Below are positions 7,153-39,806 of a stretch of 40,222 nucleotides of DNA, piece after piece (position 1 is the stretch's first letter; the number at the start of each line of letters is the position of its first letter). Source of the DNA: Candidatus Uhrbacteria bacterium RIFCSPLOWO2_01_FULL_47_25 (GTDB lineage: Bacteria; Patescibacteriota; Patescibacteriia; GWA2-46-9); the NCBI GenBank assembly GCA_001791325.1, contig MGEK01000024.1, positions 1-40,222 on the forward strand. The letters run 5' to 3'. A program made the translations under genes and the position numbers. Below the pieces are notes generated by a model. That model was not told the origin of the DNA, did not search any database, and saw nothing but the letters and a program-made list of their open reading frames with translations.

Positions 7153-7286
7153 CCCCGTTAGAAAGCCTTCCCAGAAAAAATGTTCATAACATTTTTTCTG
7201 ATTAAATTAACTGTTGAGTAAATTAACATAAATACGTTGGTGGTAATAAGAATAATTAATATTAGCTAAACGGACTTCTAACGGGG
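7153..7286. repeat. Element E1 (YCCCGTTAGAA family, subfamily A)
   Basis: Ends CCCCGTTAGAA (7153-7163) and TTCTAACGGGG (7276-7286). It contains the hairpin CAGAAAAAATGTT / AACATTTTTTCTG (7172-7200). The right end supplies the stop codon TAG (7280-7278) of rpmI, and the left end abuts the rplT start. It shares its scaffold with E2. Flanking CAT occurs on both sides. Confidence 0.85.
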
Positions 7287-7493
7287 CATGAAACGACGGA
7301 TATTTTTTTGATCAGACGCAAAAGCGCTGTGACGACGACGTTTCTTGGTCGTTGTCTTGCTTGACTCGCGGGCATTGAAATGATCTTGACCGGCGGATTT
7401 ACGAATTAGCTTAGGCGCCTTACCCCAACGGTTTGGCTTCTTGCCGCTTAATTTAAATCTCTTAGCAATGCTTTTTCTAGTTTTTAGTTTCAT
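7278..7493 (-). CDS. rpmI: Large-subunit ribosomal protein L35
   Basis: 71 residues, close to the usual 64-66. It has the L35 opening MKLKTRKSIAKRFKLSGKK and the basic KKRRRHSAF segment. It is second in the infC-rpmI-rplT operon. The usual C-terminus near LLPY is here FMPR: its last two codons and stop (CCC CGT TAG) come from the terminal repeat of element E1. No Shine-Dalgarno site is seen directly before the ATG. Confidence 0.95.
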   Translation of the reverse strand: MKLKTRKSIAKRFKLSGKKPNRWGKAPKLIRKSAGQDHFNARESSKTTTKKRRRHSAFASDQKNIRRFMPR

Positions 7494-7524
7494 ATAACTT
7501 AATATCTAAAATTAACGGGGCAGT

Positions 7525-7652
7525 CCCCGTTAGAAAGCCTTCCCAGCCCCGCTACTGCGGGGCTGATAAGATAAGCGGTTAGATAAATAATCATAGTAGC
7601 GTTGGTGATTAGAGAGATAGAGCCAAGGCATTAAGACGGCTTTCTAACGGGG
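7525..7652. repeat. Element E2 (YCCCGTTAGAA family, subfamily A)
   Basis: Perfect 15-bp ends CCCCGTTAGAAAGCC (7525-7539) and its complement (7638-7652). The inner hairpin CAGCCCCGC/GCGGGGCTG (7544-7565) occupies the same place as the AT-rich hairpin of E1, between AGCCTTCC and GAT. The right end supplies the TAG (7646-7644) that ends infC. Just outside the left end is TAACGGGGCAG (7514-7523), which looks like a leftover half of another copy. Confidence 0.88.
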
Positions 7653-8192
7653 CAGGCAAATTAATGAAAGTTTGCCACCTTGTCTTTGTAATGGCTGTTC
7701 AATGCTTAATGAATGGCGGGTTTTTAACTGCTCAATGAATGATTCCATAATGGAGCGGGCAATATCTTGGTGCTGATTCTCGCGACCTCGCAGGGGTAAT
7801 TCAATGCGTAACTTATTCCCTTCTTTCAGAAACTTCACGGCCTGTTCAAGGCGCATATCCTGATCGTGCTGGCTGATCCTAAGAGACAAACGGATGCCTT
7901 TTATTTCCTGCTTCTTCTGCCGAGCCTTTTGTTTTTGAATCTCCTTGCCCTGTTTATACTTCAACTGATGAAAATTCAAAATTTTGGCAACTGGCGGCGA
8001 CGCCGAGGGATAAACTTCCACCAAATCAAGCCCAGCTTCTTCGGCTCGCTTTAGGGCATCCTCTATCGGAACAATACCCGCATTAATCCCGTTTTCATCT
8101 ATCAAACGAACTTCGGGAACACGAATTTCGCGATTAACACGAAACTGTGGAACTGTTGGCGGACGAAAATAAGGTCTAAAAGTTTTGCGCAA
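7644..8192 (-). CDS. infC: Translation initiation factor IF-3
   Basis: 182 residues. The N-domain carries VNREIRVPEVRLIDENG and the C-domain runs through KGIRLSLRISQHD to FLKEGNKLRI. IF-3 binds the 30S subunit and proofreads start codons. The frame opens with TTG at 8192. Unusual infC start codons are well known, so TTG or a nearby codon is plausible, and no Shine-Dalgarno site helps. The last residues are Leu-Pro-Arg, where the family usually has Leu-Ala-Pro-Lys. CCC CGT TAG is the E2 terminal repeat. The 138 bases upstream hold no gene that I can see. Confidence 0.95.
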   Translation of the reverse strand: MRKTFRPYFRPPTVPQFRVNREIRVPEVRLIDENGINAGIVPIEDALKRAEEAGLDLVEVYPSASPPVAKILNFHQLKYKQGKEIQKQKARQKKQEIKGIRLSLRISQHDQDMRLEQAVKFLKEGNKLRIELPLRGRENQHQDIARSIMESFIEQLKTRHSLSIEQPLQRQGGKLSLICLPR

Positions 8193-8330
8193 GGGAAATT
8201 TAGATTAAATTGATTAAGTGGGTGGTCGTCTGGCTACGAGATTACCCGCAGAAAGACGGTAAAAAAGAGATCATAAAAGGTGCTTTTTGCGAAATATGTA
8301 AACCAGTGAAGATCTTATTGCCGCTTAATA

Positions 8331-8609
8331 TTAATAATTATGTTTTGTTTTTGTTTGAAGAAAATGAATGAGCATACTTTTTAGAACCGCCTTACCCTTC
8401 GTTGTCTTAAAGTATCGCTCGCGCTTCATGGCATCAGCTTTGTTCAAAAACGCTTCATAAAAAACAAGTTCTAGTGGCCGGCGATACTTTGTTGATGCAT
8501 TTTTACCGCTATTGTGATCATCTATACGCCGCCGCAAATTCTCTGAGAATCCCGCGTAAAATCGTTCATCTCTAAGACTGCGAAGAATGTATACATAATA
8601 GAATTTCAT
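8331..8609 (-). CDS. GIY-YIG nuclease-domain protein (UPF0213/YhbQ-like)
   Basis: 92 residues with the signature tyrosines in YYVYILRSLRD, then RFYAGFSENLRRRIDDHNSG, and a glutamate region MKRERYFK. These fit a single-domain GIY-YIG protein, with the motif slightly changed to FYAG. Such proteins are common in this group as DNA-repair or orphan nucleases, and the substrate is unknown. It stands alone between infC and ssrA. It is read in the same direction as its neighbours, but no shared promoter is evident. Confidence 0.9.
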   Translation of the reverse strand: MKFYYVYILRSLRDERFYAGFSENLRRRIDDHNSGKNASTKYRRPLELVFYEAFLNKADAMKRERYFKTTKGKAVLKSMLIHFLQTKTKHNY

Positions 8610-8655
8610 CTGTTATTTGATTACCCTGAACCAGTCGCGTTGCTCCGGTACAGGG

Positions 8656-8748
8656 CATGTACCACTCGCCTTGCTGACGCTATGGCGATGCCATGTACCC
8701 TGCACCGCAAAATGCAGGGCGCAGCCCGAGCAAAGCGAGTGGTACATG
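8656..8748. repeat. Palindromic element abutting the tmRNA 3' end
   Basis: CATGTACCACTCGCCTTGCT (8656-8675) and its complement at 8729-8748 match at 19 of 20 positions, with inner stems CCCTGCA/TGCAGGG and GGTACA/TGTACC nearby. The right arm overlaps the encoded CCA of ssrA. It may shape tmRNA 3' processing or be another inserted palindrome. There is no U tract on the minus strand. Confidence 0.65.
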
Positions 8749-9134
8749 GTGGAGATGAGGGGAATTGAACCCCTGTCTGAAGAGTGGGTAACAAGAAAGA
8801 CTACAGGATTAGCTTGCGGGATAATTTAAATCACTAATTGTCCGAAGCGCCAACCAATGATCGAGTTCCCTTTGATAGCGCCGCCTCGCCGGAAACTAGC
8901 TAAACGGCGCGCTAAGGTTATATGACACCCCATTTCTCCTTCCCCTAGCAAAAGGAGTGGGATGGCTCTCGCCTTAGTTAGGCAAGAACAGGTACAAGAG
9001 TCAAAGACGCAAAAGCGTTTCTGATCTTGCTAGCCAGTGTATTGGCAATTATTTTTTTGAGAGATATTAAAGAGCGATCTCGCGCTCTACCTGCCTTTCT
9101 TGAAAAGAACTCTCCATCGAATCCAATCATCCCC
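8747..9134 (-). ncRNA. ssrA: Transfer-messenger RNA (tmRNA)
   Basis: The 5' end GGGGATG (from 9134) pairs with CATCTCC at the 3' end (one G-U), giving the alanyl acceptor stem, followed by GATTGGATTCGATGG, typical of tmRNA 5' ends. The T-arm is AGGGG-TTCAATT-CCCCT, and CCA is encoded at 8749-8747. The tag frame begins at GCC (9046) after an A-rich run and reads ANTLASKIRN then AFASLTLVPVLA, 22 residues, ending in TAA and a second TAA nearby. The tag is about twice the length of that of E. coli. tmRNA with SmpB rescues stalled ribosomes and marks products for proteolysis. smpB lies just upstream on the same strand. Confidence 0.93.
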
Positions 9135-9147
9135 GCGAACGAAGTGA

Positions 9148-9174
9148 GCGCCCCGACCATAACGTCGGGGCTAC
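9148..9174. promoter_or_regulatory. Hairpin between smpB and ssrA
   Basis: GCCCCGAC and GTCGGGGC pair around CATAAC directly after the smpB stop. On the minus strand no U tract follows, so it may be a processing or stabilising hairpin of an smpB-ssrA transcript. On the plus strand CCTTTTTC follows, but no plus gene ends there. Ends are approximate. Confidence 0.4.
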
Positions 9175-9653
9175 CTTTTTCTCTTGAGGACGTATCGCCG
9201 AAGCTCACGCTCTGTCTCCCGACGACGGATTGTCGCTCGCTTATCAATAGTGGATTTGCCACGGGCCAACCCCACCAAGATCTTCAAGCGACGGTTGAGA
9301 GTATACACGCGAAGCGGCACTAGTGTCAAGCCGGCAGTTTGAATCTTCCCCATCATGGCCATGAGTTCATGGCCATGAAATAAAAGCCGACGAGGCCTCA
9401 AAGGATCGTAGCTGGGCAAGGGTCCGGCTTTGGTGTATGGCGGTATGTGAGCATTAATTAACAACGCCTCAAATCTCTGGCGACGCTTGCCATGACTGGC
9501 CGCCGGACGCACTGAAATATACGCATTTCTGATGTCACCATGACCGGTTTTTAGAGACTTAACCTCTTGTCCAGTAAGCACAATCCCCGCCTCCCAGGTG
9601 GCAAGAATATGATAGCGCCAACGGGCTTGTTTGTTTTCCATAATAACCGGCAT
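9171..9653 (-). CDS. smpB: SsrA-binding protein SmpB
   Basis: 160 residues with the SmpB motifs ARWRYHILATWEAGIVLTG, EVKSLKTGHGDIRNAYISV and GLTLVPLRVYTLNRRLKI, and a basic tail ending RYVLKRKR. SmpB binds the tRNA-like end of tmRNA and mimics the anticodon arm in the A site. The first ATG is at 9653. A second, at 9641 (MENKQARW), matches where many homologues begin, so the true start could be four residues later. Directly upstream of ssrA, its RNA partner. Confidence 0.96.
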   Translation of the reverse strand: MPVIMENKQARWRYHILATWEAGIVLTGQEVKSLKTGHGDIRNAYISVRPAASHGKRRQRFEALLINAHIPPYTKAGPLPSYDPLRPRRLLFHGHELMAMMGKIQTAGLTLVPLRVYTLNRRLKILVGLARGKSTIDKRATIRRRETERELRRYVLKRKR

Positions 9654-9663
9654 AAAACGGCTT

Positions 9664-9692
9664 TTGAGCTTTATCTTAAATTAGGTTATACT
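9664..9692 (+). promoter_or_regulatory. Promoter of the AI-2E family gene
   Basis: TTGAGC (9664-9669), a 17-bp spacer and TATACT (9687-9692). The predicted start is about 13 nt before the ATG at 9713, so the leader is very short and has no Shine-Dalgarno site. Confidence 0.55.
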
Positions 9693-9712
9693 AAAAACAG
9701 TATATAGCACTA

Positions 9713-10759
9713 ATGAATATGACTAAAGGTGTCACACCGCACATGGTTACCGTGTCCACTCTGACGCTTGTCAAGGTGGCCTTAATATTGCTGTTGTTAT
9801 GGGCATTGTATCTCATTGCCGATGTACTCATTCTTCTGATCGCTTCACTCCTTTTTGCCGCCGCTCTTGATCCTTGGGTTGATACCCTGCAAAAAAAATA
9901 CCATATACCCCGGGCAGTCTGCATGTTGACTATTTACGCCATTCTCATAGCCGTCATCAGTTCAGCGATTGTGCTTATCGCTCCGCCCCTCATTGATGAG
10001 ATCGGACAAATCGCTCAAGCCTTTCCCCACTACTACACACAAATTAATGAGTGGCTAATCAATGTGAATCAGCAAACTGGCAGTAACGGCGCACCACTAC
10101 AAAGTCTCTCTAACGCCGTGACGAGCGCAACCACTGGCGCCTTCTCGGTTGTGTCTAGTATTTTTGGAGGGATTGCCTCATTCATTTTAGTGCTATTTAT
10201 TACTTATTATCTGGTGGTGGATGAGGGCGCCATTAAACGAATCGCCATGATCGCTCCCAAACAACATCAGGCCTATTTTACTAATCTCATCACTCGCCTA
10301 CAAAAACAAATGGGCATATGGTTGCGCGCCCAAGTGACATTGATGGCTATTATTGGCGCCGTGACTTATCTTATCCTTTTAGCTATCGGCATGCCCTATG
10401 CTCTCGTTCTCGCGATGATAGCGGGGCTAACCGAATTCATACCATACCTTGGACCGCTACTAGGGGCTGTGCCAGCAGTGATTATTGCCTCCTCTATCTC
10501 ACCGTTGATGATTCTTACTGTTATCGCCGCTTATTATCTGATGCAGCTTTTTGAAAACAACATCATTGTACCAAAGATTATGGAAAAGGCTCTTGGCCTC
10601 TCACCAGTAGTTTCCATTATGGTTTTCTTGATTGGGGCGAGGCTGGCTGGCATAGCTGGAGCGCTCTTAGCCATACCCATAGCCACGGCAGCTATGGTAG
10701 TGATAAATGACTTACTCTCGTCAAGAAACCGATCGGAAGCTAAGCCGAATTCACGCTAG
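9713..10759 (+). CDS. AI-2E family (UPF0118/PerM-like) membrane permease
   Basis: 348 residues with the family layout: two N-terminal transmembrane helices, a soluble amphipathic region (about 95-150) and a C-terminal block of helices with GLTEFIPYLGPLLGAVPAVI, the signature of this family. Members have been linked to autoinducer-2 export and to Na+/Li+-H+ antiport. The substrate cannot be told from sequence. ATG at 9713 is used. A second ATG three codons on (9722) is possible. The following AT-rich spacer (10762-10838) is low-complexity. Confidence 0.92.
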   Translation: MNMTKGVTPHMVTVSTLTLVKVALILLLLWALYLIADVLILLIASLLFAAALDPWVDTLQKKYHIPRAVCMLTIYAILIAVISSAIVLIAPPLIDEIGQIAQAFPHYYTQINEWLINVNQQTGSNGAPLQSLSNAVTSATTGAFSVVSSIFGGIASFILVLFITYYLVVDEGAIKRIAMIAPKQHQAYFTNLITRLQKQMGIWLRAQVTLMAIIGAVTYLILLAIGMPYALVLAMIAGLTEFIPYLGPLLGAVPAVIIASSISPLMILTVIAAYYLMQLFENNIIVPKIMEKALGLSPVVSIMVFLIGARLAGIAGALLAIPIATAAMVVINDLLSSRNRSEAKPNSR

Positions 10760-10761
10760 AA

Positions 10762-10838
10762 TTTTGAATACGGAATTATGAATTTGGTTTGATTATTTTC
10801 AACATTCATTATTCCTGATTCTTTATTCACCATTCCAT
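10762..10838. repeat. Low-complexity AT-rich spacer
   Basis: Degenerate ATTCATTATTC / TTTATTCACCATTC-type words. Very similar strings occur at 34832-34930. No gene seen. Confidence 0.5.
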
Positions 10839-10845
10839 CACTAGT

Positions 10846-10947
10846 GTGGCTGACCATTTAGAAACCATTGTCGCACTCTGCAAACGCCGGGGGTTCATTT
10901 TCCCCGGTTCTGAAATTTATGGCGGGCTGGCCCTCCTAAATTTCTGA
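10846..10947 (+). pseudogene. Remnant of a second glyS 5' end
   Basis: GTG at 10846 opens 33 codons to TGA at 10945. The translation ([20 protein letters not shown], then SEIYGGLA) aligns without gaps with residues 2-28 of the intact GlyS that starts at 10957, differing at several positions. The last 26 bases are nearly identical (one difference), then the sequence breaks into LLNF and a stop. It looks like the head of an older or foreign glyS left by recombination, or a decayed tandem duplicate. It may still be translated as a short peptide. Confidence 0.8.
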
Positions 10948-10956
10948 ATTTATAGT

Positions 10957-13591: not shown

Positions 13592-13689
13592 TCCCGTTAG
13601 AAATTCCCGCGAGGTATTGCGACCTCCACGTGAATGGTCCCGAGCGGTAACCCACGCCGCAGAGTGGCGGAGTGTTATTTCTAACGGGA
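13592..13689. repeat. Element E3 (YCCCGTTAGAA family, subfamily C)
   Basis: Perfect 13-bp ends TCCCGTTAGAAAT / ATTTCTAACGGGA with a perfect 4-bp flanking direct repeat TAAA (13588-13591, 13690-13693). Its plus strand aligns with the minus strand of E6. It supplies the TAG (13683-13681) of the minus-strand membrane protein. Confidence 0.87.
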
Positions 13690-14136
13690 TAAATAGATAG
13701 TGACCAAGAAAAAGCCAAATTGCACCACGCCTCCAGCAACGAGTGGTATCTCGTAATTAATGAGTTTGTGGTTTCGCTCGTGAAAGCGCGCAAAATGCGG
13801 CCATAATTTGCCGTGAGAAAGCTCGGAAAAACCGGCCAGCACATCGGGCATAATAGCGCCAAGCGCACCGGCCATGGCGCCAATAGCGTTATTAAAAAAG
13901 CCGCCTAACCACAAAACTGCTATTAAAGACATGGCCGCCAGACCGTCAATTATTGCCAGAATCACGAGCCAATGAAGTCGTTCTGGGCAAAAAAGCAGTC
14001 GTCCAGATCTTTCGTCGCCATGCGGAATTATATCCGCGACAAAATGCGACAAAAATCCTGCCCAAAAAGAGAAGGCTGGCGGCTCTAGCCTCTCACCAAT
14101 AGCCGCGCCAACAGTAGCATGAACAATTAAAAACAT
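13681..14136 (-). CDS. Small integral membrane protein, possibly DUF457/YdjM-like
   Basis: 151 residues with about four transmembrane segments. SHFVADIIPHGDE (around residues 31-43) and GALGAIMPDVLAGFSE resemble the His/Asp pattern of the YdjM-type membrane 'metal-dependent hydrolase' group, but the resemblance is weak and the function is unknown. The ATG is two bases from the end of E4 and the stop lies inside E3 (residues Leu-Ser-Arg, TAG), so the whole gene is framed by the two repeat elements. It follows the glycogen cluster on the same strand. Confidence 0.8.
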   Translation of the reverse strand: MFLIVHATVGAAIGERLEPPAFSFWAGFLSHFVADIIPHGDERSGRLLFCPERLHWLVILAIIDGLAAMSLIAVLWLGGFFNNAIGAMAGALGAIMPDVLAGFSELSHGKLWPHFARFHERNHKLINYEIPLVAGGVVQFGFFLVTIYLSR

Positions 14137-14138: not shown

Positions 14139-14237
14139 CCCCGTTAGAAGGCCATCAATTTAATATGAGCTATTTTTGTTTGCGGCAAGAGTGGGCATGA
14201 TTAGTCATTCCATAGTTAAGTGGGCCTTCTAACGGGG
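14139..14237. repeat. Element E4 (YCCCGTTAGAA family, singleton)
   Basis: Perfect 15-bp ends CCCCGTTAGAAGGCC (14139-14153) and complement (14223-14237). The galT-like stop TGA (14240-14238) abuts one end and the next gene's ATG lies 2 nt from the other. The core does not resemble the other copies by eye. No clear flanking repeat. Confidence 0.83.
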
Positions 14238-22301: not shown

Positions 22302-25300
22302 TTATCTTTTTGCCCCAGAGTAGGAAATAGCTCTGACCGCGTCCCAATCAGCCGCTAAAGTAGGCACTTTCTTGAAGATAGCTTTGTAGCTATTGATAGC
22401 GGCCTTTTCCGAATCAAGATTACGTACGGCTGATCTTAAGCCATAGGCCATGACCGTGACTGCCGCGTCATCGCGCGCGTTAGTGCGGTTTGGATCGCGA
22501 AGATATATCTTCTTGAAAGTGACAGATACTGCTTTTTCTCTCGTCGCGCTCAAGGCTGATGGCCAGCGGCCATTAGCAATCTTGATAACATCCTGCCAAT
22601 CTGCTTCATTAGTCGGCACCTTGCCGTAAGCGGCACGGAAGCTGTTCACCACACCGCCGCGCTCACCGGCGCCAAGAACTTGAGTTGTGCTCGTGCCATA
22701 GGTCACGAAGTTCAAAACTTTTGCTTTTGTGGCGGCTGGAGTGTTGGCCACTATAATTCGCGCGACAATGGTAGACTCGTAACGCTGTTCCAATCCAAGG
22801 TCGCGTGATTTGCCAGCTTCTTTGGCAATTGTCTCTGCGTTTGCCGTGGCTATGTTTGTAGCTTCACTAATAATTTGCGTAATCGGTGATGCTTCAACCG
22901 GAGCAGCCACTGGTTCGCTAGCAACTGGTGTCTTTGACGTGGTGTCTGTGGTAGTCGGCTGTTTAGTAGTAGTCGGTGTTGTTTGTGTTGGCGCTGGTGT
23001 ATATATGCCACCGCCTGATGACGCGCCGCTAGAGACCGCGGATGTCGCCATGCTGACCTCGCTGGAAGCCAGTGATTCACCCACGGCATTCAAAGCCGTA
23101 ATCTTGTAGTAGTAGGTGGTGCCGGCGGTAAGAGCGGTATTAGTATAAGTGACGGTTGAACCGCTAGATACAGTTGGATCAGCGTCTGTAACTCGTGTGA
23201 ATGTTCCACCTGAAGTCCCGCTGCGATAAATGGTATATCCTGTCGCTCCACTAACTTGCGTCCAGCCCATAGTTATGGAAGTGGTCGTGCCGCTGGTTCT
23301 GGCTAACCCCGAGGGTGCGGATGTGGGCGCGCCGTCAGCCGAAACAACCGGCGCGTAAAGGGAGAAGTGGTCAGTAGCGGCCGAAATTGTGGCGGTGGCA
23401 ACATTAGTGCTGAATTCAGAAGTCGTATCAATGGTCGTCATATCAGTAATAATATTACCGCTTGAATTTTTGTAAGTAATCGTTGTTGGCTTAGTCACCC
23501 AGTTTGAAGTGGTCTCATCCCAGTAGGCCATCTTCAAGGTGTCTGCTTCAGCTTGGGTGTTGATTGAAGTATCACTGCCAGAGGCCGTGGCTGCCAATTC
23601 CGCAAGAGTGTAGGTCATTTCCACGGTAATAGAACCATTAAGAGTGGTGATGGGATTGCCGCTTGAATCAGTGGCCTTAATTTCTTTAGCCATGTTGACA
23701 TATGAACCTGTGGAACTGTCAAAACTCTTTAGGGGCTTAGCTGAGCTGGTTTCGCGAACATTGTTGGTTTCTTTGGCTTGCACATTACCGGCCGAAGTAG
23801 AGGTGCCTAGGGCATTTGCCGGAATGGTTAATTTCACCCCAGCGGTAGTGTCCTCAAGAGTGCCGCCGCTCGCCGGTGTGATTGGTTTTGTCTTTGGCGC
23901 GGCTAAACTAACAGCCGTGCTTACAGTAATATCTTTACTGCTGACCGATCCACCGGTCACATCAATCGGATTTTGGGCGTAAGCGGCTTCGGCATACCCG
24001 TCGGCCACTGCCATCACGCGCCAGACGCCAGAGTTTACGTAAAGAGTGTAGTTACCAGTGGCATCGGCCTGCGCTCCGGCAAATCCGCCGCCCTGCTTTT
24101 CCGCCCTGATAAAGGCGTTGGCCGCGCCATTTGAACCAATGAATACCCGACCAGCAATGGTTGTTGAAGCCGCGCTCACGGTCAGAGTCTGCGCCGCGGT
24201 AGTATCGTTCACAATTAAGTTGCTTGGTTCACGGAAAAAGCCCGGCTTCATAGCGTTAACTTTGTATGTGCCATCAGCCATGTTAAGGGTAAAGCTTCCA
24301 TTAGTAGCGGTCTTCGTGCCAAAGTGCACGCCGTTTGCATTGCTCACCACTTCCACCCATGCGTCAGCGAGATTATTCGTGCCGTCAGTTACTGTGCCGG
24401 TCACGGCACGCAGAGTCGGCACGGTTACGGTTAACGCTTCATTGCTGTCAACGGTAACTACGCCAGTCGTAGAGCTGTAAACTGTGCCGCCCGTGCCGGC
24501 AATATCAGTGAGGCCAATGGCTGTGCCCGGCATACCAACGCGAACATTATAGCCACTGTTGGGCAAGGAATCGGGCACCTGGAGCGTCCCCGTGGTAGTG
24601 TTGTTTATTTCCACGCGATTACCTACTCCGTTGGAGCTGAAAAGATCAATGAATGCTTTGGTAACGCTTGCCGAGAATGTGACAGTGACAGTGCGCGGCG
24701 TGGTCACTGTAATATCTTTACCTGTGACATCACTGCCAGCCACATCAAAGGCGGCCAGAGGCGCGCTTTCGCCAACATTTGGAATAAAGGCGCGAATAAT
24801 ATAACCGCTGCCGACAGGCACCTTGAAGCTGTATATGCCATCAGCGCCGGTAATTGTTTCGTTAAACATTCCATTACCAGAGAGCCGGACAAACGCGCCC
24901 TGCACCGCTACCCCGCCAGAAGTTACCGTACCTGATACGGCACGGAACGTACCAGTGGCGGTCGGCGAGAAGTTCTGGTTAGTGGCGCTAACGCCATTGA
25001 TGGTGACGGTTAATTCCGCCAAGTTGCCGTATTGCGGCAGGAATGTCCCCACTTTCCAGGTGCCGTTTGAAACATACAACGTGTAGTTGCCGGAAGAATC
25101 AGTATTGGCGTTAGCGTATCCTGGACCGTCATTACGATAAGCATACACATTAGCGCCCTGCGCCACGTTCGTGCCGTCAGTCACTTTTCCGGAAATGGTG
25201 TAGTCGGGCTTAGCCACTTTCAAGATGAATGAGGTGGCCGCGGCCGTCGGCGTAATAGCCGTAGTCGCGCCGTCAATCAATAGATAAGTCGTAGCGTCAG

Positions 25301-28300
25301 TAGTTACAACCACCGACACTTCTTTGGATGGCGGCATGCCCGGGACAAACGAGCCAACAATATAACTGCCGTCCGTAACACCTAGCGTGAAAGCTCCCGC
25401 TGAATCCGCCTGCGTACGCGTGCCAAAACCGCCGTTGGGAGAATAAGCGTACACCTCAGCATTAGCCATTACTTTGCCAGCGCCATCCTTCACGACACCC
25501 CTAATTTGCTTCGAGGCGGTTGAGAGCGTAAAGGTGATACTGCACCCGGCCGTACCGTCAACCGTGCAAGTAGGATTCGTCACCCGCACATCTTTGGGCT
25601 TTGGCGGCAGGTAATTTGGCGTGGGCGGCGGGCCAGCCATCATGCCCTTAGGCATCTGCGGCCCTACCCCGACAAACCATGTGCCGTCAGTCAAATTGAT
25701 GGTAAAGGCCTGCGGGTTCGTCGTCACAGACACCTGTTTCGCCTTGAATCCGCTCGGAGAACCGGCGAAAATGTCCATGGCTTCGCCAACCCCATTAGCG
25801 ATATTCACCGTGATATTTGTGCCGCCGGTCGAGGCGTTAGCAATCGTGAAGTTATAGGGAATAGAGTTGTCGTTCGCGCCACTGTTCGCGGTATCCGCTG
25901 TTTCGTTGATTATGATACGCTCGGGCATGGTCTTACCGGTGTACTCGGTTGCGCCAAGGGTAATCATCTGATCAGTAAAGAGCATATAGTCGCCAGCTTG
26001 GAGATTAGTGAAGGTGTAAGTGGCAGATCCGCCGGCAAAAGTTGTGGAGGTCGTATCCCTGGGGCCAGTCATTGGCGACATTAGATAGACGCTCATTGTG
26101 CCAGCGCCAGCGCCAGTAGCAGTAATGGTGCCGGTCAGGGTGTATGATTCACCGCTAATACCCTGAATAAAGAACGGCTGTGAGGTCATTGACTCAAGCG
26201 TGGTCGCACCATTCTTGGTTTTTATATCCACCATGTAGCCAGTGGTGTTAAAGTCTTTGGGCACCGTGGAATTCTTAATGCCGGCAATGTCAATCGTCAG
26301 GAAATCATGGCCTGCGGTATTGGTGGCGGCCGAGAGATAAACAGTGACTGTGCGAGATGAAGTGTTCACAACAACACCGTCGCCAGCTAACCCCCCTTGA
26401 GCCGCGCCAGTATCGTCGCTGTTGGCCGTGCCCGCGCATGACGCGCCGGTTGGCGCGCCGACCGCGGCGCACTTAAAGGTGATTGCGCCGGTACCGGGCC
26501 CATTAAGGTCAGTGCGCATTGGGCTATTAACATCCTGCCTTGCCGAGCTCACGTCAAAACCAGTTGGGAAAGTCAGAACAACAGCACCGCTCGCCGGAAT
26601 CTGCGCCGAGATAGGGATACGCACACCATAGATGGTTGTTTGCCCAGCCATCATGTTGAATGGCCTCACCTCTGCTGGTGGGGCAAAGCCGAAGGTAGTG
26701 CTCGAAAAATTGGTGGGTGTAAATCCGCCCTGCGTGCCAAACATATCTCCACCAGATGATCCCGGACCAAGAGCGCCTTTGGTTGTCGCGCTATTGCCGA
26801 TTGGTGACTTCCCAGTGGTGGTGCCGCTTATGGCGTTGCCAGAGAGGTCTTTGACATTGGCCACGGAAACGTAAATTTCTTTGCCAATTAGACCAGTCAC
26901 CGCCGTGCTGTGATAACCACTAATAGTCACTGTGTTCGTGGCGGCATCATAAGCGAAGCTGGCTGTGGGTGGGCTATTGGGGTCCGTTGGGATGGTAATG
27001 GTCGTGCCACTCGCTGAATCGTCCGGAGGAGTAGCGTATTTAATCGTGTAGTTACCGGGCTTTAAGACACTGGCGGCGTAGTTGATGGTATCCGTCACTT
27101 TGGCCGCGTTCATCGGTTCAGAGAAAGAAATCGCCAAATTGTAATCATCGGCGTTAACGAACGCGACATTGGGAGCGGCTGAATCTGCCGCGCCAGTCGT
27201 GAAGGTGCGAGTGACGGCCGCAATAGCCACTCCATTTAATCCCTGAATGCTAGCTGTCAAATTAAGCGTGTAGGTGGTGTTTGGCGTTAAGGCCGATTGC
27301 GGTATAAACATGGCTTGGCGGCCGATAGGATCATACTCAACTGTGCCATTAATCGCGGTTGAACCAATGGAGAGATAGAATGTGCTCGTACTGATGGTTG
27401 AAGAGTTCATGTCTTTACTGAATCCCACGCTAACAGCCCCAACGTTAACTGGAACATTGGAAGCGCTATTGTCTGGGTAAGAACCCATGATTGTTGGCGC
27501 TACGTCATCAGTGGTAGCGCTTGTCTTAAAGTCAGCTCGGAACATGGAAGTTGCAATTTGATCGGGCGGACCAAGTGTGATCATAGTTCCTGCCCTAGCG
27601 CCTCCCAAAACTTTCAAGCGATAACTGGTACTCGCCGCAAAGGTTCCGCTATTGTAGGAATTGAGCAGTGTGACGGTGGCGTTCTTCTTAGTTGTGTCAA
27701 GGGCAACGGTGCTAATGGCGCTTGAAGAAACATTGGCTTCAATTGTGCCGGAAACAGTGAAAAGCTGAACATTATCTTTCAAGAGATAGCCGCCGCCGTC
27801 ATCAGCCATTGGTTCGGAGAAGTTAATAACTACTTTACTGTTACGAGGCACGTCAATCGCGCCCGGCGTGGGAGTCGTGCCAAGAACGTACGGCGGAACG
27901 AATTGGCCAGAGCCAAAGGTGCCGCCGCCAGAAAACGTACCAGTGGTGCTATTGAAACCGCTAAAGTTGGCGGTGGAACCAGTGGTAAAGGTGAAGGCAT
28001 ATCCGCCGTCTGGTTGATTGCCCTGAATTGGGTTACCAGCCGTGTCAGTCACATTAGCGCTAACTTTAACGGCAATGGTCTTATTGTCGCCTAAAGTACA
28101 CGGAGCCCCGCTACAGCCGCTTTGTGACAGCGACCAAACAGCCATATTGGCTTCTGGCGGAAGCATTGGAACGCCAACTGGCGCCGTTGAATAATAAGTC
28201 CATGAACCCTTAGTTGAGGTAATATCGCTCAAAGCGCCAGTGGAGATATTCACTTCGTTTATGGTGAGGTTAGTGGCTGTAATGGTTGATTGGCTCATGG

Positions 28301-31067
28301 TTTTGCTGAGCACAACGAAAATCTTGAAGTTGGAATCGCTGCCAGGCATATTCATCATCCCATCCATTGGACCAGTAAACTTCACGCGAGCTCTGGTAGT
28401 GTCACCGCCAAATCCGCCAAATGACCCTTGGCCAAGCTGGAAATTAATACTAGTGGAGCCGGCTGGAATACCGTTAATCATCCGGTCAGAATAACCTTCC
28501 CTGACCGCCACGATGTCATAAGTGCCGGCAGTTAATCCGGTTAAAGTATAGGCGCAACTCGCATCAGTGGATGTGCTAAAGCCAGTACCTTCGGCAAAAA
28601 CAGCGGCTAATTGCACGCCAGCCGAACAAGTGCCAGTGCCGTCTTGCACCGAACCAGCGATCGTGCTTGCTCCAGCCGTGACCGAGGTCAATTGAAATGG
28701 CGTTGTGCCGTCAGGTTGCTTAAAGTTAGTAGTGTTTGTGCCATCACTTGCCTGCAAGTAGTAGCGTACGATTGTACCAGCGGTGCTAATCGTGGCTGAC
28801 GGAATACGGTATCTAAAGTAACCATTGCCAACAGCCGTTGGCGCCGCTCCTTCGGTGGTGGGATCGCAAGCCGCGCCCGCGCAGTAAAATATCTTGGTTG
28901 TGAGGGCTGGCGTAGAGGTCGCGGTAGCCATGTTGTCGTTCACCCGAGCATAGATATCTAAATTGGCGATAGCTGTGGCTTGGAAAACTGGCCGGTGCAT
29001 AACCATTGGCGGCGTGACATCAGAAATTGAAGATACGGTCGTAAAGCCCCTGACTGGCGTCTGCTCAAGCGGAGTAGCCACATCAGAAACATTGGCTACT
29101 GTTTCGCTATAAGTTTTCACTTGCCAATAGTAAGTAGTATTTGGCGCCAAGGGGGTTGCCTGCGTAATGATACGGAATGTCCCCTGCCCATACATCAAGT
29201 TGCAAGTCGTGACGTCGCAGTGAGAACCGTTGGTGTTCTGGCCATCAGCCGGTTTAGGGAAAGTGTAGTCCCAAAGTGCCGTGCCGGCAAAATTGGAAGT
29301 GGATTTAACTATGACGCGATAGCTGTTAACGCTCACGTTTGTTGAAGGGCTAAATCCAAGGCCTGGAGGAAGAGGCACGTTGGTAGCGTTCTCGCCGGGC
29401 ATCAAAAGATTAAGGCCACTGCCGCCGGCCGCGAAGACGTTAAAGCCATTGGGCATAGTGACTATTTGAGCGCCAGTGGTCACTTTGACATCGCGGTTAC
29501 CAACACTTGCGCCACCGGCAATACTCACTGATATAGTTATGCTAGTTGAGCTGGAGCTTGTAGGAACACAACCGCCCGCCGAGCAAATATTGGTATCTTC
29601 AGTACCGCTGGATAAAAACTGCACTCTGCTTGAGCCGCTAAAAGTTGTATTCGAACCCGTGATAGTCACTGACATACTGGTCGCTCCTTGCGGCCCGCCG
29701 CCCGGACTAACATTCATAATGCCCGGCACGCCGCCGCCCGCGGATGCTATGTTCAATGTAAACATCCTAGTGGCTGTGGCGGGAGTTCCCGCAAAGTCCG
29801 TCACGGTCAACGTAAATTGGTAGCTCCCAGGGTTGGCCACGGCGCTTGTGCCAAACAATTTACCGGTCTGATTGTCGGTTGGCGTAGCCGTGAGACTAGT
29901 AAATCCTAAACTCGCCAGCAGAGTAGCATCGGCCGAGCTGACGCTCCATTTATAATTCCCAGATGACGGAGTGCCGCCTGCGGCAGCAAACGTCACGAGA
30001 GGCGAACCAACCGCGTACGTTGTGCCGACACTTGCTGTTGGGATAGTCGGAGTGCTAATAGCGAGCGCGCTAGTAACAGGTACCGCACCAGTACCCACCG
30101 CCGTGCCTCCAAAGTCAGCAATCTTGTTTGAACCAGCGGCTAAGGTTGAAGGCGATCCGTCAACATCACCACTGTCCAAATTGTCGCTTAAAGTAACGAT
30201 GGCAAAATCTTGACCCTCGGTATGACTAATAGCACTAATGGTTGTCCCGCCGGTTGTACCAAGATCACTGAAAGTAAATGGGCTGTCGGCCAAAGCAATG
30301 GCGCCGCCTACTCCGTATTTTCTAACGGGTTTATTAAAACGCACGGTTAAAGTGCTGGCCCCAGCGTAACCTGATACGCTTGTGATTGCCACTACGGCAG
30401 TATCCGCGCGGAGGAAGTTCATAGGAGAAGGGGCTTCCGCTGCCGGCCCATTACCGTCAGAAGTTACTACGCCGCTGGCTGGGACTACCGCTCGGATTTC
30501 ATCGTTGTTGCTAATGCCAGCCGCGGTTTTTATTACAATATAAAATATCTTAGCAGTGCCATTGGGGAGGTTGCGATCGGTATCATTGACATCGGTCGTC
30601 AAAGTTATGTTAGTGGTACTTGGAGTCCAATTTGGAGAAGCGGCCAAAGTCACAATCGGATCAATGCCATCCTCAAAAGTGCCGGCCACTCCGCTGTCAG
30701 TATAGAGCGCCACGCCAGAGGTCGCGTCAGTTGCTATTGCCAGCAAATCAGTGGTGGCAAACCCTGTACCACTAAAATTCACTGTTGCCGAAGTCAGAGT
30801 CTGACTAGCTTGCGAAGCAGTGGTACTAATTTTTAAAATCGCGATGGCTGGTGAGCTCGCAGGTATGGGCACACCTGGAAAACTACTATTAATTTGCCCG
30901 TGGGTAACGGTCACGGTGCTTGCCGCGCGCACCGTTAATTTTTTAATCGGTCCGTTCCATCCCGGAAACGTAAAAATGACAGCTAAAGCTGCCACCACAA
31001 CGAGCGACGCCATAGACGCCGCAAAAACGTCAATTTCAAACTTTTCCCTCTTTGGAAGTTGCTCCAT
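22302..31067 (-). CDS. Giant cell-surface protein with Ig-like, carboxypeptidase-regulatory and FN3 domains
   Basis: 2921 residues. A cytoplasmic N-tail and one transmembrane or signal-anchor helix (about 13-33, SMASLVVVAALAVIFTF) precede a very long Ser/Thr/Gly-rich exterior. I see Ig-like modules of the Big_5 type (FSKDMNSSTIS, GVAIAAVTRTFTTGA), an IPT-like unit (MNVSPGGGPQGATS), at least six carboxypeptidase-regulatory-like repeats (ISGKVTDGTNVAQGANVYAY and relatives), one fibronectin III domain (about 2580-2670), a Pro/Thr linker (about 2682-2726) and a C-terminal domain (about 2795-2921) with repeats ending ADWDAVRAISYSGAKR. Closely spaced Cys pairs (ICSAGGC, HCDVTTC, YCAGAAC, GCSGAPC) suggest disulfides. 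Probably an adhesin or sheath protein; ligand unknown. No Shine-Dalgarno site at the ATG. Confidence 0.93.
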   Translation of the reverse strand: MEQLPKREKFEIDVFAASMASLVVVAALAVIFTFPGWNGPIKKLTVRAASTVTVTHGQINSSFPGVPIPASSPAIAILKISTTASQASQTLTSATVNFSGTGFATTDLLAIATDATSGVALYTDSGVAGTFEDGIDPIVTLAASPNWTPSTTNITLTTDVNDTDRNLPNGTAKIFYIVIKTAAGISNNDEIRAVVPASGVVTSDGNGPAAEAPSPMNFLRADTAVVAITSVSGYAGASTLTVRFNKPVRKYGVGGAIALADSPFTFSDLGTTGGTTISAISHTEGQDFAIVTLSDNLDSGDVDGSPSTLAAGSNKIADFGGTAVGTGAVPVTSALAISTPTIPTASVGTTYAVGSPLVTFAAAGGTPSSGNYKWSVSSADATLLASLGFTSLTATPTDNQTGKLFGTSAVANPGSYQFTLTVTDFAGTPATATRMFTLNIASAGGGVPGIMNVSPGGGPQGATSMSVTITGSNTTFSGSSRVQFLSSGTEDTNICSAGGCVPTSSSSTSITISVSIAGGASVGNRDVKVTTGAQIVTMPNGFNVFAAGGSGLNLLMPGENATNVPLPPGLGFSPSTNVSVNSYRVIVKSTSNFAGTALWDYTFPKPADGQNTNGSHCDVTTCNLMYGQGTFRIITQATPLAPNTTYYWQVKTYSETVANVSDVATPLEQTPVRGFTTVSSISDVTPPMVMHRPVFQATAIANLDIYARVNDNMATATSTPALTTKIFYCAGAACDPTTEGAAPTAVGNGYFRYRIPSATISTAGTIVRYYLQASDGTNTTNFKQPDGTTPFQLTSVTAGASTIAGSVQDGTGTCSAGVQLAAVFAEGTGFSTSTDASCAYTLTGLTAGTYDIVAVREGYSDRMINGIPAGSTSINFQLGQGSFGGFGGDTTRARVKFTGPMDGMMNMPGSDSNFKIFVVLSKTMSQSTITATNLTINEVNISTGALSDITSTKGSWTYYSTAPVGVPMLPPEANMAVWSLSQSGCSGAPCTLGDNKTIAVKVSANVTDTAGNPIQGNQPDGGYAFTFTTGSTANFSGFNSTTGTFSGGGTFGSGQFVPPYVLGTTPTPGAIDVPRNSKVVINFSEPMADDGGGYLLKDNVQLFTVSGTIEANVSSSAISTVALDTTKKNATVTLLNSYNSGTFAASTSYRLKVLGGARAGTMITLGPPDQIATSMFRADFKTSATTDDVAPTIMGSYPDNSASNVPVNVGAVSVGFSKDMNSSTISTSTFYLSIGSTAINGTVEYDPIGRQAMFIPQSALTPNTTYTLNLTASIQGLNGVAIAAVTRTFTTGAADSAAPNVAFVNADDYNLAISFSEPMNAAKVTDTINYAASVLKPGNYTIKYATPPDDSASGTTITIPTDPNSPPTASFAYDAATNTVTISGYHSTAVTGLIGKEIYVSVANVKDLSGNAISGTTTGKSPIGNSATTKGALGPGSSGGDMFGTQGGFTPTNFSSTTFGFAPPAEVRPFNMMAGQTTIYGVRIPISAQIPASGAVVLTFPTGFDVSSARQDVNSPMRTDLNGPGTGAITFKCAAVGAPTGASCAGTANSDDTGAAQGGLAGDGVVVNTSSRTVTVYLSAATNTAGHDFLTIDIAGIKNSTVPKDFNTTGYMVDIKTKNGATTLESMTSQPFFIQGISGESYTLTGTITATGAGAGTMSVYLMSPMTGPRDTTSTTFAGGSATYTFTNLQAGDYMLFTDQMITLGATEYTGKTMPERIIINETADTANSGANDNSIPYNFTIANASTGGTNITVNIANGVGEAMDIFAGSPSGFKAKQVSVTTNPQAFTINLTDGTWFVGVGPQMPKGMMAGPPPTPNYLPPKPKDVRVTNPTCTVDGTAGCSITFTLSTASKQIRGVVKDGAGKVMANAEVYAYSPNGGFGTRTQADSAGAFTLGVTDGSYIVGSFVPGMPPSKEVSVVVTTDATTYLLIDGATTAITPTAAATSFILKVAKPDYTISGKVTDGTNVAQGANVYAYRNDGPGYANANTDSSGNYTLYVSNGTWKVGTFLPQYGNLAELTVTINGVSATNQNFSPTATGTFRAVSGTVTSGGVAVQGAFVRLSGNGMFNETITGADGIYSFKVPVGSGYIIRAFIPNVGESAPLAAFDVAGSDVTGKDITVTTPRTVTVTFSASVTKAFIDLFSSNGVGNRVEINNTTTGTLQVPDSLPNSGYNVRVGMPGTAIGLTDIAGTGGTVYSSTTGVVTVDSNEALTVTVPTLRAVTGTVTDGTNNLADAWVEVVSNANGVHFGTKTATNGSFTLNMADGTYKVNAMKPGFFREPSNLIVNDTTAAQTLTVSAASTTIAGRVFIGSNGAANAFIRAEKQGGGFAGAQADATGNYTLYVNSGVWRVMAVADGYAEAAYAQNPIDVTGGSVSSKDITVSTAVSLAAPKTKPITPASGGTLEDTTAGVKLTIPANALGTSTSAGNVQAKETNNVRETSSAKPLKSFDSSTGSYVNMAKEIKATDSSGNPITTLNGSITVEMTYTLAELAATASGSDTSINTQAEADTLKMAYWDETTSNWVTKPTTITYKNSSGNIITDMTTIDTTSEFSTNVATATISAATDHFSLYAPVVSADGAPTSAPSGLARTSGTTTSITMGWTQVSGATGYTIYRSGTSGGTFTRVTDADPTVSSGSTVTYTNTALTAGTTYYYKITALNAVGESLASSEVSMATSAVSSGASSGGGIYTPAPTQTTPTTTKQPTTTDTTSKTPVASEPVAAPVEASPITQIISEATNIATANAETIAKEAGKSRDLGLEQRYESTIVARIIVANTPAATKAKVLNFVTYGTSTTQVLGAGERGGVVNSFRAAYGKVPTNEADWQDVIKIANGRWPSALSATREKAVSVTFKKIYLRDPNRTNARDDAAVTVMAYGLRSAVRNLDSEKAAINSYKAIFKKVPTLAADWDAVRAISYSGAKR

Positions 31068-34720: not shown

Positions 34721-34821
34721 CCCCGTTAGAAATTAGATTGTAATACACTCATATAATATGTACTTGACGCGAAACAACCTTATTTCCATCGTAGTAACCA
34801 TTGATTATATTTCTAACGGGG
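34721..34821. repeat. Element E5 (YCCCGTTAGAA family, subfamily B)
   Basis: Perfect 13-bp ends CCCCGTTAGAAAT (34721-34733) and complement (34809-34821), with direct repeat TAAA on both sides (34717-34720, 34822-34825). The core aligns along its whole length with E7, including the shared block CATTGATTATATTTCTAACG. It lies between iscS and the NifU-like gene. Confidence 0.9.
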
Positions 34822-34831
34822 TAAACAATAT

Positions 34832-34971: not shown

Positions 34972-35079
34972 GCCCCCACACTCACTCTCCCTCAACAAAC
35001 ACAGTGATGATACCCGTTGCAAGAGTGTTCACTTATTTCTCCGGGTCAGGGGGTAAGTGGTGATAGTGAGTGTGGGGGC
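34972..35079. repeat. 108-bp palindromic element overlapping the iscS 3' end
   Basis: GCCCCCACACTCACT (34972-34986) and its exact complement (35065-35079), 15 bp, around a 78-bp core. The last 16 codons and the stop of iscS lie inside it. It has different ends from E1-E7 but a similar size and position. Confidence 0.7.
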
Positions 35080-36333: not shown

Positions 36334-36338
36334 AATTT

Positions 36339-36770: not shown

Positions 36771-36879
36771 TTAACTATAAATACTGGTTAATAAAAAGGT
36801 GGATAAACTGTTAATCCCTAGTAGAGCGGTAGGAATTATTATACACGCAGCCCATCCTTTATGTCAAAAACTATTTTTA

Positions 36880-36959
36880 TCCCGTTAGAAATAATACCCC
36901 GCCGCTTGCGGCGCGGGTTGCTCTGTTTGAGGTAATTCCCACGGGAATTTCTAACGGGA
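36880..36959. repeat. Element E6 (YCCCGTTAGAA family, subfamily C)
   Basis: Perfect 13-bp ends TCCCGTTAGAAAT (36880-36892) and complement (36947-36959), with flanking direct repeat TTTA (36876-36879, 36960-36963). Its minus strand aligns with the plus strand of E3, including a GC-rich hairpin (CGCCGC/GCGGCG). It supplies the TAG (36953-36951) of comEC. Confidence 0.88.
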
Positions 36960-38501
36960 TTTATTGCTTTGAGAATTACCGATCGCAACGCGAGGAAATA
37001 AAAATCTTACATTATAATTATACCAAACCAGCCACCCGCCCAGAATCAAGTAATAAACTACCAAGAACCATAAACTAATAGACATCTCAACGGAAGCGAC
37101 TGGCAGACGCGAAGCTATATCAATGACCTTCAGAACATAGATTGCCCCAACCCATCCGCTAAATCCTATAATCTGACCAAGTGGCGTCACTATAAGACCG
37201 ACCAAACCGCCCAAAAAACCGAAAAACATAATAAACGCAATGGGCGGCACCACCAACATATTCACTGCGGGAGCAACTAGTGAAAGACGACCAAAATAAT
37301 AAAGAATAAGCGGGGTCACGAATATTTCGGCGGACACAGCCATGAGTAGTGCGGCTTTGAAACCGAGAAGATTGGGCCAGCGCTGAGCCAGACGATTAAG
37401 CAATGGATAAAGATAAAGCATGCCAAGAGTGGCTAAAAATGAAAGCTGAAAACCAATATCTTGAACAAGCAAGGTCGGCTCAATTAACAACATCACCACG
37501 GCCGCCAGCATAAGGGCATTGCGTGAACTGGATGCTCGTCCGGATTGATTTGCAATCACCACCAGCATCCCCATAATAGCGGCTCGGACAATAGAGGCTT
37601 CAGCGCCAACCATGGTGACAAACAAAAAAAGAATTGCTCCCACAATCACTGTGCGCCAACGACGTGGTGCAGTAATGGTTTTTAAAACAATCAACAAGAA
37701 TGAGGCAATTATAGTCACATTGAAGCCGGACAGGGCAACAAGATGTGCTGTCCCCGTGATATTTAGCGCATCCCGCCACTCTTGATTAAGGCCGGAACGC
37801 CCACCAATAAGCAGGCCAGTGACAAACCCAACGGCTGGCTCGGGCATGATTCTCGTGAGCGACCGGACGTATGATTCTTTAATAACCCCCAAAATTGAAA
37901 CAAGATTACGAGATAAATGCGGCTGAATGATTGTTTCTGGAAACAAACAAATAACCGTCGGCTGCGCGGCATTCTTGTCCGCGGTGATTTCACAAGTTAG
38001 TTTCAGCCTGTCACCCGCCATTACTTCGGGAAACGGACGCGCGACCACTGCAATGGTTCTACCGCTTGCCGATGATATTACTTCATCAACTAAATCAAGT
38101 TTCAAATCATAGCGAATTGAACGATTTTGACGCGCCGGAACACCAACCACTTGCCCTTGTAATAAATGTTTTTGGCCGACTAATTGGTTAATTGATTCAG
38201 ACGACGATAAATTATGAAAAATTTCCGAACGCGCCACGCCTATAATCAACGCTAACATAACCAAGGAACCAAAACATGCCAATAGATGGCGCCGATAACA
38301 CAGGATGGCCACAATTACCAACCCCCACCCGCCAATGTAAAGATAAACGAGCGGCGGAGAAATAAAATTCCCCAACGCTATGCCAATAACTAAACCCAGA
38401 CAAATAAAAAAGAACTGCCAGGAAGGAGACAGGTGGCGTAGCCACCCAGAATATAGAATATAGAATATAGAATATCGGAACCGCTGAAACCGAATCTGCA
38501 T
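36951..38501 (-). CDS. comEC: ComEC/Rec2-type DNA-uptake channel protein, no metallo-beta-lactamase domain
   Basis: 516 residues. After two or three N-terminal helices comes an OB-like soluble part (about 100-200, HLLQGQVVGVPARQ), then the competence domain with many helices including GLLIGGRSGLNQEWRDALNITGTAHLVALSGFNVTII and RAAIMGMLVV. This is the membrane channel for single-stranded DNA entry in natural transformation. The C-terminal metallo-beta-lactamase domain of full-length ComEC (about 750 residues) is absent, and the last codons (Lys-Ser-Arg, TAG) come from element E6. The N-terminus YSIFYILYS is written by an AGAATAT microsatellite, so the exact start is uncertain. Confidence 0.92.
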   Translation of the reverse strand: MQIRFQRFRYSIFYILYSGWLRHLSPSWQFFFICLGLVIGIALGNFISPPLVYLYIGGWGLVIVAILCYRRHLLACFGSLVMLALIIGVARSEIFHNLSSSESINQLVGQKHLLQGQVVGVPARQNRSIRYDLKLDLVDEVISSASGRTIAVVARPFPEVMAGDRLKLTCEITADKNAAQPTVICLFPETIIQPHLSRNLVSILGVIKESYVRSLTRIMPEPAVGFVTGLLIGGRSGLNQEWRDALNITGTAHLVALSGFNVTIIASFLLIVLKTITAPRRWRTVIVGAILFLFVTMVGAEASIVRAAIMGMLVVIANQSGRASSSRNALMLAAVVMLLIEPTLLVQDIGFQLSFLATLGMLYLYPLLNRLAQRWPNLLGFKAALLMAVSAEIFVTPLILYYFGRLSLVAPAVNMLVVPPIAFIMFFGFLGGLVGLIVTPLGQIIGFSGWVGAIYVLKVIDIASRLPVASVEMSISLWFLVVYYLILGGWLVWYNYNVRFLFPRVAIGNSQSNKSR

Positions 38502-38545
38502 TATTAGTTTCTATCTATATTCTAAATTCCATATTCTATATTCTT
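38448..38545. repeat. AGAATAT microsatellite and inverted copy at the comEC 5' end
   Basis: Four tandem AGAATAT units (38448-38475) inside the comEC start region, and ATATTCTATATTC at 38531-38543 in the reverse sense between prfB and comEC. Together they can form an AT-rich hairpin around the comEC start. Confidence 0.6.
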
Positions 38546-39664
38546 GATGTCGTTTCGGCTTTTCTTTCCTGCTCCAAAATCCAACGCAAATAAGATTCCA
38601 TAAATGGCTCCAACTTGCCGTCAAGCACGACATCCGTGTCACTAGTCTCAAATTTAGTGCGATGGTCTTTAACTAATTTATACGGCTGCAATACGTACGA
38701 ACGCGCTTGATTCCCCCACTCGGCTGACTGATAAGCACCACGAAGTTTATGTTTTTCGTCCTGCTGTTCGCGCAGGGCCAACTGATGTAGTTTGCTTTGT
38801 AAAATTTTTAGCGCTGTTTCCTTGTTCTGTTGTTGCGACCGTTCATTCTGACAAGAAACAGTTATGCCGGTAGGCAGATGCACAACGCGCACGGCGGAAT
38901 AAGTAGTCTGCACGCTCTGTCCGCCATGACCGGATGAAAGATAAGTATCAATGCGCAAATCCTTGGGGTCAATCTGCCTCTCCTCCACTGGATCAAGCTC
39001 GGGCAAAACCTCCACTAAAGCAAACGACGTATGCCTCATTTTCTCCGCATCAAATGGAGAAATACGTACCAAACGATGAACGCCCTGTTCGCTCCTTAAA
39101 TATCCATAAGCCCAACGCCCCTCAATGGCAATAGTCACGCTTTTGATTCCCGCTACCTCGCCTCTATGCTCATCAATAATCCTAGATTTCCAGTTATGCG
39201 CTTCGGCAAAACGCATATACATCCTAAGCAGCATGGACGCCCAATCTTGCGCCTCGGTGCCGCCAGCGCCGGCGTGAATGGCTAAAATGGCGCTACGCTC
39301 GTCATAGCGACCTTGAAACAGTGTTATAAATTCCAAATCGTAAAATTTTTTTCTAGTTTCTTCCAATCCCTGACACAACGATTGCTCAAGCGATGTATCG
39401 CCCGAATTTAAAACAACTTCAGTTAATTCTCGCAAATGACCAACTTCTTCGGTTAAAGAATTCCAAGATTGCAATTCCTTCCTAAGATCACTTGCTCGTT
39501 CGCTTCTTTTTCTGGCCGATTCCTGTTCGCTCCAAAAATCGGCGCGGCTCATAGCCGCTTCCAATTCCTTAAGCTCAACCGATACTGACTCTAGGTCAAA
39601 GTACCCTCCGCGTCGCGGCGATTTTTTCGCCGAGACTTAAAATTTCTTTAAGCAACTCCCTCAT
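38536..39664 (-). CDS. prfB: Peptide chain release factor 2, with programmed +1 frameshift
   Basis: The zero frame starts at ATG 39664 (MRELLKEILSLGEKIAATRRVL) and meets TGA at 39598-39596. Slipping +1 at CTT-TGA (CTT 39601-39599, T 39598 skipped, GAC 39597-39595) joins the long frame, giving about 375 residues. Upstream of the slip is the Shine-Dalgarno-like GGAGG that stimulates it in other bacteria. RF2 features: stop-recognition SPF in RISPFDAEKM and catalytic GGQ in SGHGGQSVQ. RF2 reads UAA and UGA, and its own level sets the rate of frameshifting. The presence of the TGA slip site shows UGA is a stop in this genome. Confidence 0.95.
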
Positions 39665-39667
39665 ATA

Positions 39668-39704
39668 AATGATAAGCTCTAATTTCTAAGCACTAATCTC
39701 TAAA
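39668..39704. repeat. Low-complexity spacer beside E7
   Basis: Words CTAATTTCTAAGCACTAATC, mirrored on the other side of E7 at 39807-39835 (TTAGAGATTAGGAATTAGAG). It extends the terminal inverted repeat of E7 to 25 bp. Confidence 0.5.
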
Positions 39705-39806
39705 CCCCGTTAGAAATTAAGCTGTAAGACAGCATATCTTATACGTATCTTAAGCGGAATACCCTTGTTTTCCTCATAACAATCATTGATTATATTTCTA
39801 ACGGGG
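39705..39806. repeat. Element E7 (YCCCGTTAGAA family, subfamily B)
   Basis: Perfect ends CCCCGTTAGAAAT / ATTTCTAACGGGG, which continue outward into the flanks so that 39693-39717 and 39794-39818 are a perfect 25-bp inverted repeat. The core is about the same length as E5 (102 versus 101) and similar throughout. It lies between the HtrA-type gene and prfB. Confidence 0.9.

Follow-up and report, generated by a model that had tools for sequence, protein, structure and literature searches.

The short palindromic repeats scattered along this stretch of DNA (the window, 40,222 nucleotides in full) are mobile, and we place a probability of roughly 80% on their belonging to a superfamily of non-autonomous, MITE-like elements that are inserted into YNNR targets by an enzyme acting in trans. 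A preliminary description of the window had picked out seven segments that begin with YCCCGTTAGAA and end with its complement, and had suggested either a miniature mobile element or a conserved structured RNA at gene ends. All seven are present and palindromic, with perfect arms of 11, 15, 13, 15, 13, 13, and 13 bp, respectively. Shuffling of the window under a dinucleotide model gave 0.03 arm hits and 0 pairs per shuffle, which places the paired ends above chance. The elements and the genes that they adjoin most closely are as follows.

6801..7151, minus strand: rplT (ribosomal protein L20; PF00453, 2.8e-37), with its start codon adjoining the element at 7153-7286
7153..7286, minus strand: element, family 0, C-type, 134 bp, from the rpmI stop (TAG within the element) to the rplT start
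7278..7493, minus strand: probable rpmI (L35), from position and sequence
7525..7652, minus strand: element, family 0, 128 bp, 15-bp perfect arms, upstream of rpmI
7644..8192, minus strand: infC (IF-3), PF05198 and PF00707
13592..13689, minus strand: element, family 1, T-type, 98 bp, exact 4-bp repeat TAAA/TAAA
14139..14237, minus strand: element, 99 bp, 15-bp arms
34721..34821, strand unassigned: element, family 2, 101 bp, exact TAAA repeat
36880..36959, plus strand: element, family 1, T-type, 80 bp, exact TTTA repeat
39705..39806, strand unassigned: element, family 2, 102 bp, flanks TAAA/TTTA

The clearest local case is an operon with the order infC, element 7525-7652, rpmI, element 7153-7286, rplT. 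The first of these elements provides the TAG stop of infC, whose protein ends ...LPR*, and the second provides the stop codon of the probable rpmI, with its C-terminus ...MPR*, and lies 1 nt from the ATG of rplT (TATG). Elsewhere in the window, the element at 14139-14237 is positioned 2 nt upstream of the ATG of a gene at 13681-14136, the one at 36880-36959 overlaps the stop of a competence-protein gene (36951-38501), and the one at 34721-34821 is embedded within a longer repeated flank. The original placement of all seven at the ends of minus-strand genes was half correct, as the elements at 7153-7286 and 14139-14237 also border start codons. The reported lack of a transposase holds for the ten window proteins that were scanned, none of which is one. 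The window also contains a lone unpaired end, TTCTAACGGG, at 30320-30329 inside an ORF of 2,921 aa (22302-31067), at 34973-35078 what may be a third type of end, CCCCCACACTCACT...AGTGAGTGTGGGGG, accompanied by a CGTG repeat, and a 32-bp partial copy (6357-6388, 88%) of part of the adjacent tRNA-Asp (6458-6533).

In the host genome (G000; 1,196,999 bases in 40 contigs), YCCCGTTAGAA occurs 86 times in the forward and 83 times in the reverse direction, and the reversed control pattern 1 and 2 times. The proposed genome-wide check came out in favour of a repeat family, with these ends far commoner than the control across the genome. When one mismatch per arm was allowed, pairing gave 107 elements of 29-285 bp, with size peaks at 29, ∼94-104, and ∼122-136 bp, and left only 17 ends unpaired. 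Their anatomy, short and non-coding with inverted ends, is that of MITEs. In another genome (G140), a 53-bp element at L061:6912-6964 forms an in-frame fusion with the N-terminal end of a pilin-like protein (...FLTGFTLIELLVV...).

Evidence for mobility comes from target duplications, nested copies, and empty sites, and these support the earlier suggestion of a miniature mobile element. Across the host genome and G380, a genome of the same genus with roughly 70-88% identity at shared sites, an exact 4-bp direct repeat flanks 74 of 131 elements (12.4 by shuffling); repeats of 3 and 5 bp number just 5 and 1. Among 300 unique elements from all genomes there are 167 exact flanking repeats, and every one of them fits YNNR. 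The two flanks vary in concert (for example, TTGA/TTGA and TCTA/TCTA), and insertion is orientation-locked, with family 0 having CATA 22 times and TATG once among exact repeats, and family 1 dividing 23 to 1. About 40% of copies have no exact flanking repeat, which counts against the MITE-like explanation. Some elements have inserted into others: a composite of 237 bp is resolved as 132 + 4 + 101, and the same composite is found at two sites. Comparison with G380, which has 27 and 25 ends in the two directions, identified occupied and empty versions of the same site. In the cleanest pair, the element at L150:18326-18419 in G380 has TAAA on both sides and the host genome has a single TAAA; other filled and empty pairs between the two genomes are at C38:8680, C2:1840, and L157:1099. 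Thus the elements are dispersed, multi-copy, and polymorphic for insertion, with a target duplication of fixed length (4 bp, YNNR). Family-0 copies are old, their nearest copies being mostly 70-91% identical, whereas family 1 includes younger copies, with identities of up to 99%, that are seldom at starts. At the site orthologous to 14139-14237, G380 has a 151-bp family-0 copy (L151:10285-10435).

The position of elements relative to genes is highly non-random. Within the host genome they are mostly located between co-directional genes, and 94 of 101 outer copies are outside ORF bodies (18% expected). The suggested enrichment at gene 3' ends was not observed, as there is no particular preference for these genome-wide. 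In the host genome and G380 together, an ATG lies exactly 1 nt beyond the element in 44 of 127 cases, compared with 2% for random YNNR targets outside genes; in 15 of the 127 the duplication contains the stop of a gene, and in 21 the element's own TAG serves as the stop. The start-adjacent cases are mostly family 0, oriented 40 to 5 with respect to the flanking genes. For T-type copies (TCCC...GGGA) in other genomes, the start codon consists of the element's last A and a flanking TG in 49 of 57, and C-type copies are start-adjacent in 11 of 65 (GTG included), against a null of 0.6% per side; these counts are not independent because copies share ancestry, although the T-type set spans many genomes. 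Elements often abut the starts of essential genes, and those downstream include recA, rpsD, rplB, fusA, dnaB, alaS, and ssb (N-termini read by eye rather than by HMM). A motif resembling a Shine–Dalgarno sequence is present at −20 to −4 of the start for 59% of C-type copies, never at canonical spacing, and rarely for T-type copies. Two ideas about transcription were considered and set aside: sense-strand promoters are not in excess, as a promoter cassette would require, and the distance to a −10 box is not fixed, which does not fit targeting of transcription start sites. At two orthologous start-codon sites in G380 (L148:9383-9531 and L162:4582-4750), hairpins of the form CCCCGTAATACAACATTCA...TGAATGTTGATATACGGGG replace the element of the host genome.

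Such positions raise the question of whether the repeats are simply regulatory RNA leaders in 5' UTRs, inherited vertically and immobile. The structure lying on the sense strand against the AUG in those 49 of 57 T-type copies is compatible with this, as are the location before ribosomal and other housekeeping genes and the retention of orthologous copies in two species. It is contradicted by sites that are empty and hold one copy of the target, and also by the exact 4-bp duplications, the nesting, and a patchiness that extends to a complete lack of ends in G381, from the same family; the downstream genes are unrelated and many copies are away from starts, so this explanation is very improbable. 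Copies at start codons may have been aimed there or may simply survive there. Under MITE-like insertion they may persist because the start codon is restored by the duplication, together with the element's final A in the case of T-type copies; such a copy would then join the leader of the gene.

The ends themselves have an unusual property. They form a 13-bp inverted end (YCCCGTTAGAANN), pairing as an exact 13-bp stem in which positions 1, 12, and 13 covary. In a set of 146 non-redundant elements with unrelated cores and positions 2-10 fixed, Watson–Crick pairing at these positions is 0.97, 0.93, and 0.94, compared with 0.52, 0.48, and 0.43 after shuffling, and it collapses at position 14 (0.41 compared with 0.30); the search pattern sets positions 2-11 in the GTDB and viral sets, leaving positions 1, 12, 13, and 14 onward unbiased there. 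Position 11 is variable in the host genus, for which the search tolerated one mismatch. Family-0 members have arms altered on both sides while the core is still recognizable, and in one orthologous insertion (C20:22493-22627 and L149:3532-3706) three pairs have changed on both sides. Of the 16 shortest elements, 14 are 29 nt long, a 13-bp stem closed by a 3-nt loop (13 + 3 + 13). A sense-oriented alignment of 23 T-type elements revealed a second helix of 6 bp past a 3 × 1 internal loop, with compensatory changes in 6 of 6 pairs and 92.8% pairing; when the partner was displaced by 1-3 columns, pairing of the whole structure fell to 34-45%. The earlier idea of a structure conserved at the ends of genes is upheld with respect to the covarying 13-bp helix, and is modified with respect to location, the start codon being favoured over the 3' end as a boundary.

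If a transposase did no more than recognize each end as duplex DNA, covariation of this type within one family would be unexpected, a point against the MITE-like explanation. Taken together, the pairing of the ends, the orientation lock, and the 29-nt elements lead to the suggestion that folding of the strand plays a part at some point, either in transposition or as RNA. They are also the reason for considering an element recognized through its structure as a single strand, with an HUH/Y1-like enzyme, a tyrosine recombinase, or a reverse-transcription route acting on the folded strand; this would account for the compensatory maintenance of the stem and inner helix and for strand-specific insertion. 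Confinement of covariation to exactly 13 bp, the asymmetric 3 × 1 loop of the second helix, and the three double-sided changes between C20:22493 and L149:3532 are consistent with such a route, as are the orientation-locked targets and the 29-nt minimal elements. The flanks vary jointly, as in a genuine target duplication, whereas HUH transposition produces none, and Y1_Tnp is absent from the host genome and G380, unassociated with the elements elsewhere, and never encoded between these ends; this alternative is therefore possible but doubtful. A broader proposal, that a mobile hairpin, folded as single-stranded DNA or RNA and aimed at start codons, serves as a transplantable 5' leader of essential genes across several uncultivated phyla, is put forward only tentatively.

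When inverted ends accompanied by YNNR repeats were sought in an unbiased way, a second end type emerged in the host genome, YCCCGCACC (YCCCGCACCNNN), with 40 pairs. All 17 of its exact repeats are YNNR, terminal position 1 covaries likewise, and 8 copies adjoin an ATG. The paired form YCCCGCACC...GGTGCGGGR is present in both the host genome and G380, with examples at L107:2618-2829 and L091:2801-3005.

A 4-bp duplication points to staggered insertion into double-stranded DNA, most simply by a DDE-type transposase in trans. Within the MITE-like explanation, the enzyme is probably of this type, making its joins 4 bp apart. The 13-bp inverted ends would flank a non-coding core of 3 to ∼250 nt, the core would set the orientation in which the enzyme inserts the element at YNNR, and recognition of the two ends may at some step involve a folded single strand. 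Across ∼2.8 Mb examined, no copy carrying a transposase gene between these ends was found, nor were autonomous copies with a long end-to-end distance. What looked like autonomous candidates in G024 are distinct small elements located around housekeeping genes, and a 1.3-kb pair in G140 is made up of a small element and an end unrelated to it. Searches with five enzyme families (Y1_Tnp, DDE_Tnp_1, rve, IS1595, and RVT_1) gave no clear candidate. Y1_Tnp (PF01797), found in neither the host genome nor G380, is present in 13 of 30 positive and 10 of 30 negative genomes, with no association, and these ends do not flank any Y1 gene; most element-rich genomes lack DDE_Tnp_1 and rve, and IS1595 transposases are rare or without association. 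Reverse transcriptase has a weak association (18 of 30 positive and 9 of 30 negative genomes, p = 0.04, uncorrected for phylogeny), which is also in the direction that a single-strand, reverse-transcription route would predict. Nine contig ends of the host genome share an IS-like terminus and six its probable partner (AGGAGTGCAA...GGCCT..TA..CA), for example at the start of L070, the end of L073, and both ends of L091. Other groups of contig ends share further termini, and therefore the interiors of multi-copy ISs are missing from this assembly. Because the assembly breaks at the ends of multi-copy ISs, the missing enzyme or parent is weak evidence against the MITE-like explanation.

The same searches bear on whether these are REP/BIME sequences mobilized by a RAYT transposase, to which short, intergenic palindromes in many copies would correspond. 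The Y1_Tnp domain is lacking in the host genome and in most element-rich genomes, and the elements have 4-bp target duplications. REP hairpins are GTAG-footed, and the element ends do not resemble them. An origin of this type is highly unlikely.

The distribution of MITE-like elements with these ends is patchy. Most of 380 genomes of the phylum have none or are at chance level, and roughly two dozen have many paired ends. Paired exact ends were found in at least 115 stretches of GTDB species genomes, and the record titles of the matches listed include Patescibacteria, Omnitrophota, Deltaproteobacteria, Planctomycetota, Nitrospirae, Cloacimonadota, and others, of which single off-phylum records are possibly mis-binned because the GTDB matches are mostly metagenome bins. 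Paired ends are also present on some contigs of viral collections. There is no match to any curated covariance model in Rfam, nor to plasmid and phage records for the elements tested, and nothing was found in the literature searched. Relative to these sources the repeat family is apparently new, as had been proposed from the window. They could be ordinary MITEs of a single IS family, the autonomous member of which has already been recorded under these ends, for example in ISfinder, given that their general anatomy is MITE-like; the end sequence is without a literature match, and the end pairing and start-codon rule are atypical of MITEs, making this improbable.

This is a small, highly coding genome, yet it harbours more than 100 elements, many of them against the starts of genes for ribosomal proteins, replication, and translation. 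Should this be confirmed, they would constitute a mobile element that crosses phyla and is moved by an enzyme that has so far not been found, with consequences for the annotation of start codons and for the predicted terminal residues of proteins, such as ...MPR* and ...LPR*. A testable question is how translation proceeds with a 13-bp stem directly abutting the AUG.

Several known systems share some of these features. Integron attC sites are also folded, with covarying arms and GTTRRR-like boxes, but the elements described here have the reverse box order, 4-bp target duplications, and dispersed single insertions rather than arrays. The REP/BIME sequences with RAYT (related to IS200/IS605) are similar in their palindromic hairpins, high copy number, and strand-asymmetric structure, and differ in that the present elements have target duplications and no associated Y1 transposase, so that they fall outside the REP/RAYT class. 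Rickettsia palindromic elements and mitochondrial byp elements are small hairpin insertions that are tolerated in or against coding genes. Their sequences are different, and our elements are mainly at gene boundaries with reconstruction of start codons, and no bypassing is shown. The elements behave like bacterial MITEs such as RUP of pneumococcus, Correia/NEMIS, and ERIC, which are also <∼300 bp and non-coding with inverted ends and a target duplication, have a high copy number, are mostly intergenic, and are able to fuse to ORFs (PMC2229807). These MITEs mostly have 5'-TA-3' termini (PMC2229807). Unlike them, the elements described here combine a 4-bp YNNR duplication and exact 13-bp pairing, maintained by compensatory changes, with orientation-locked insertion and frequent placement at start codons.
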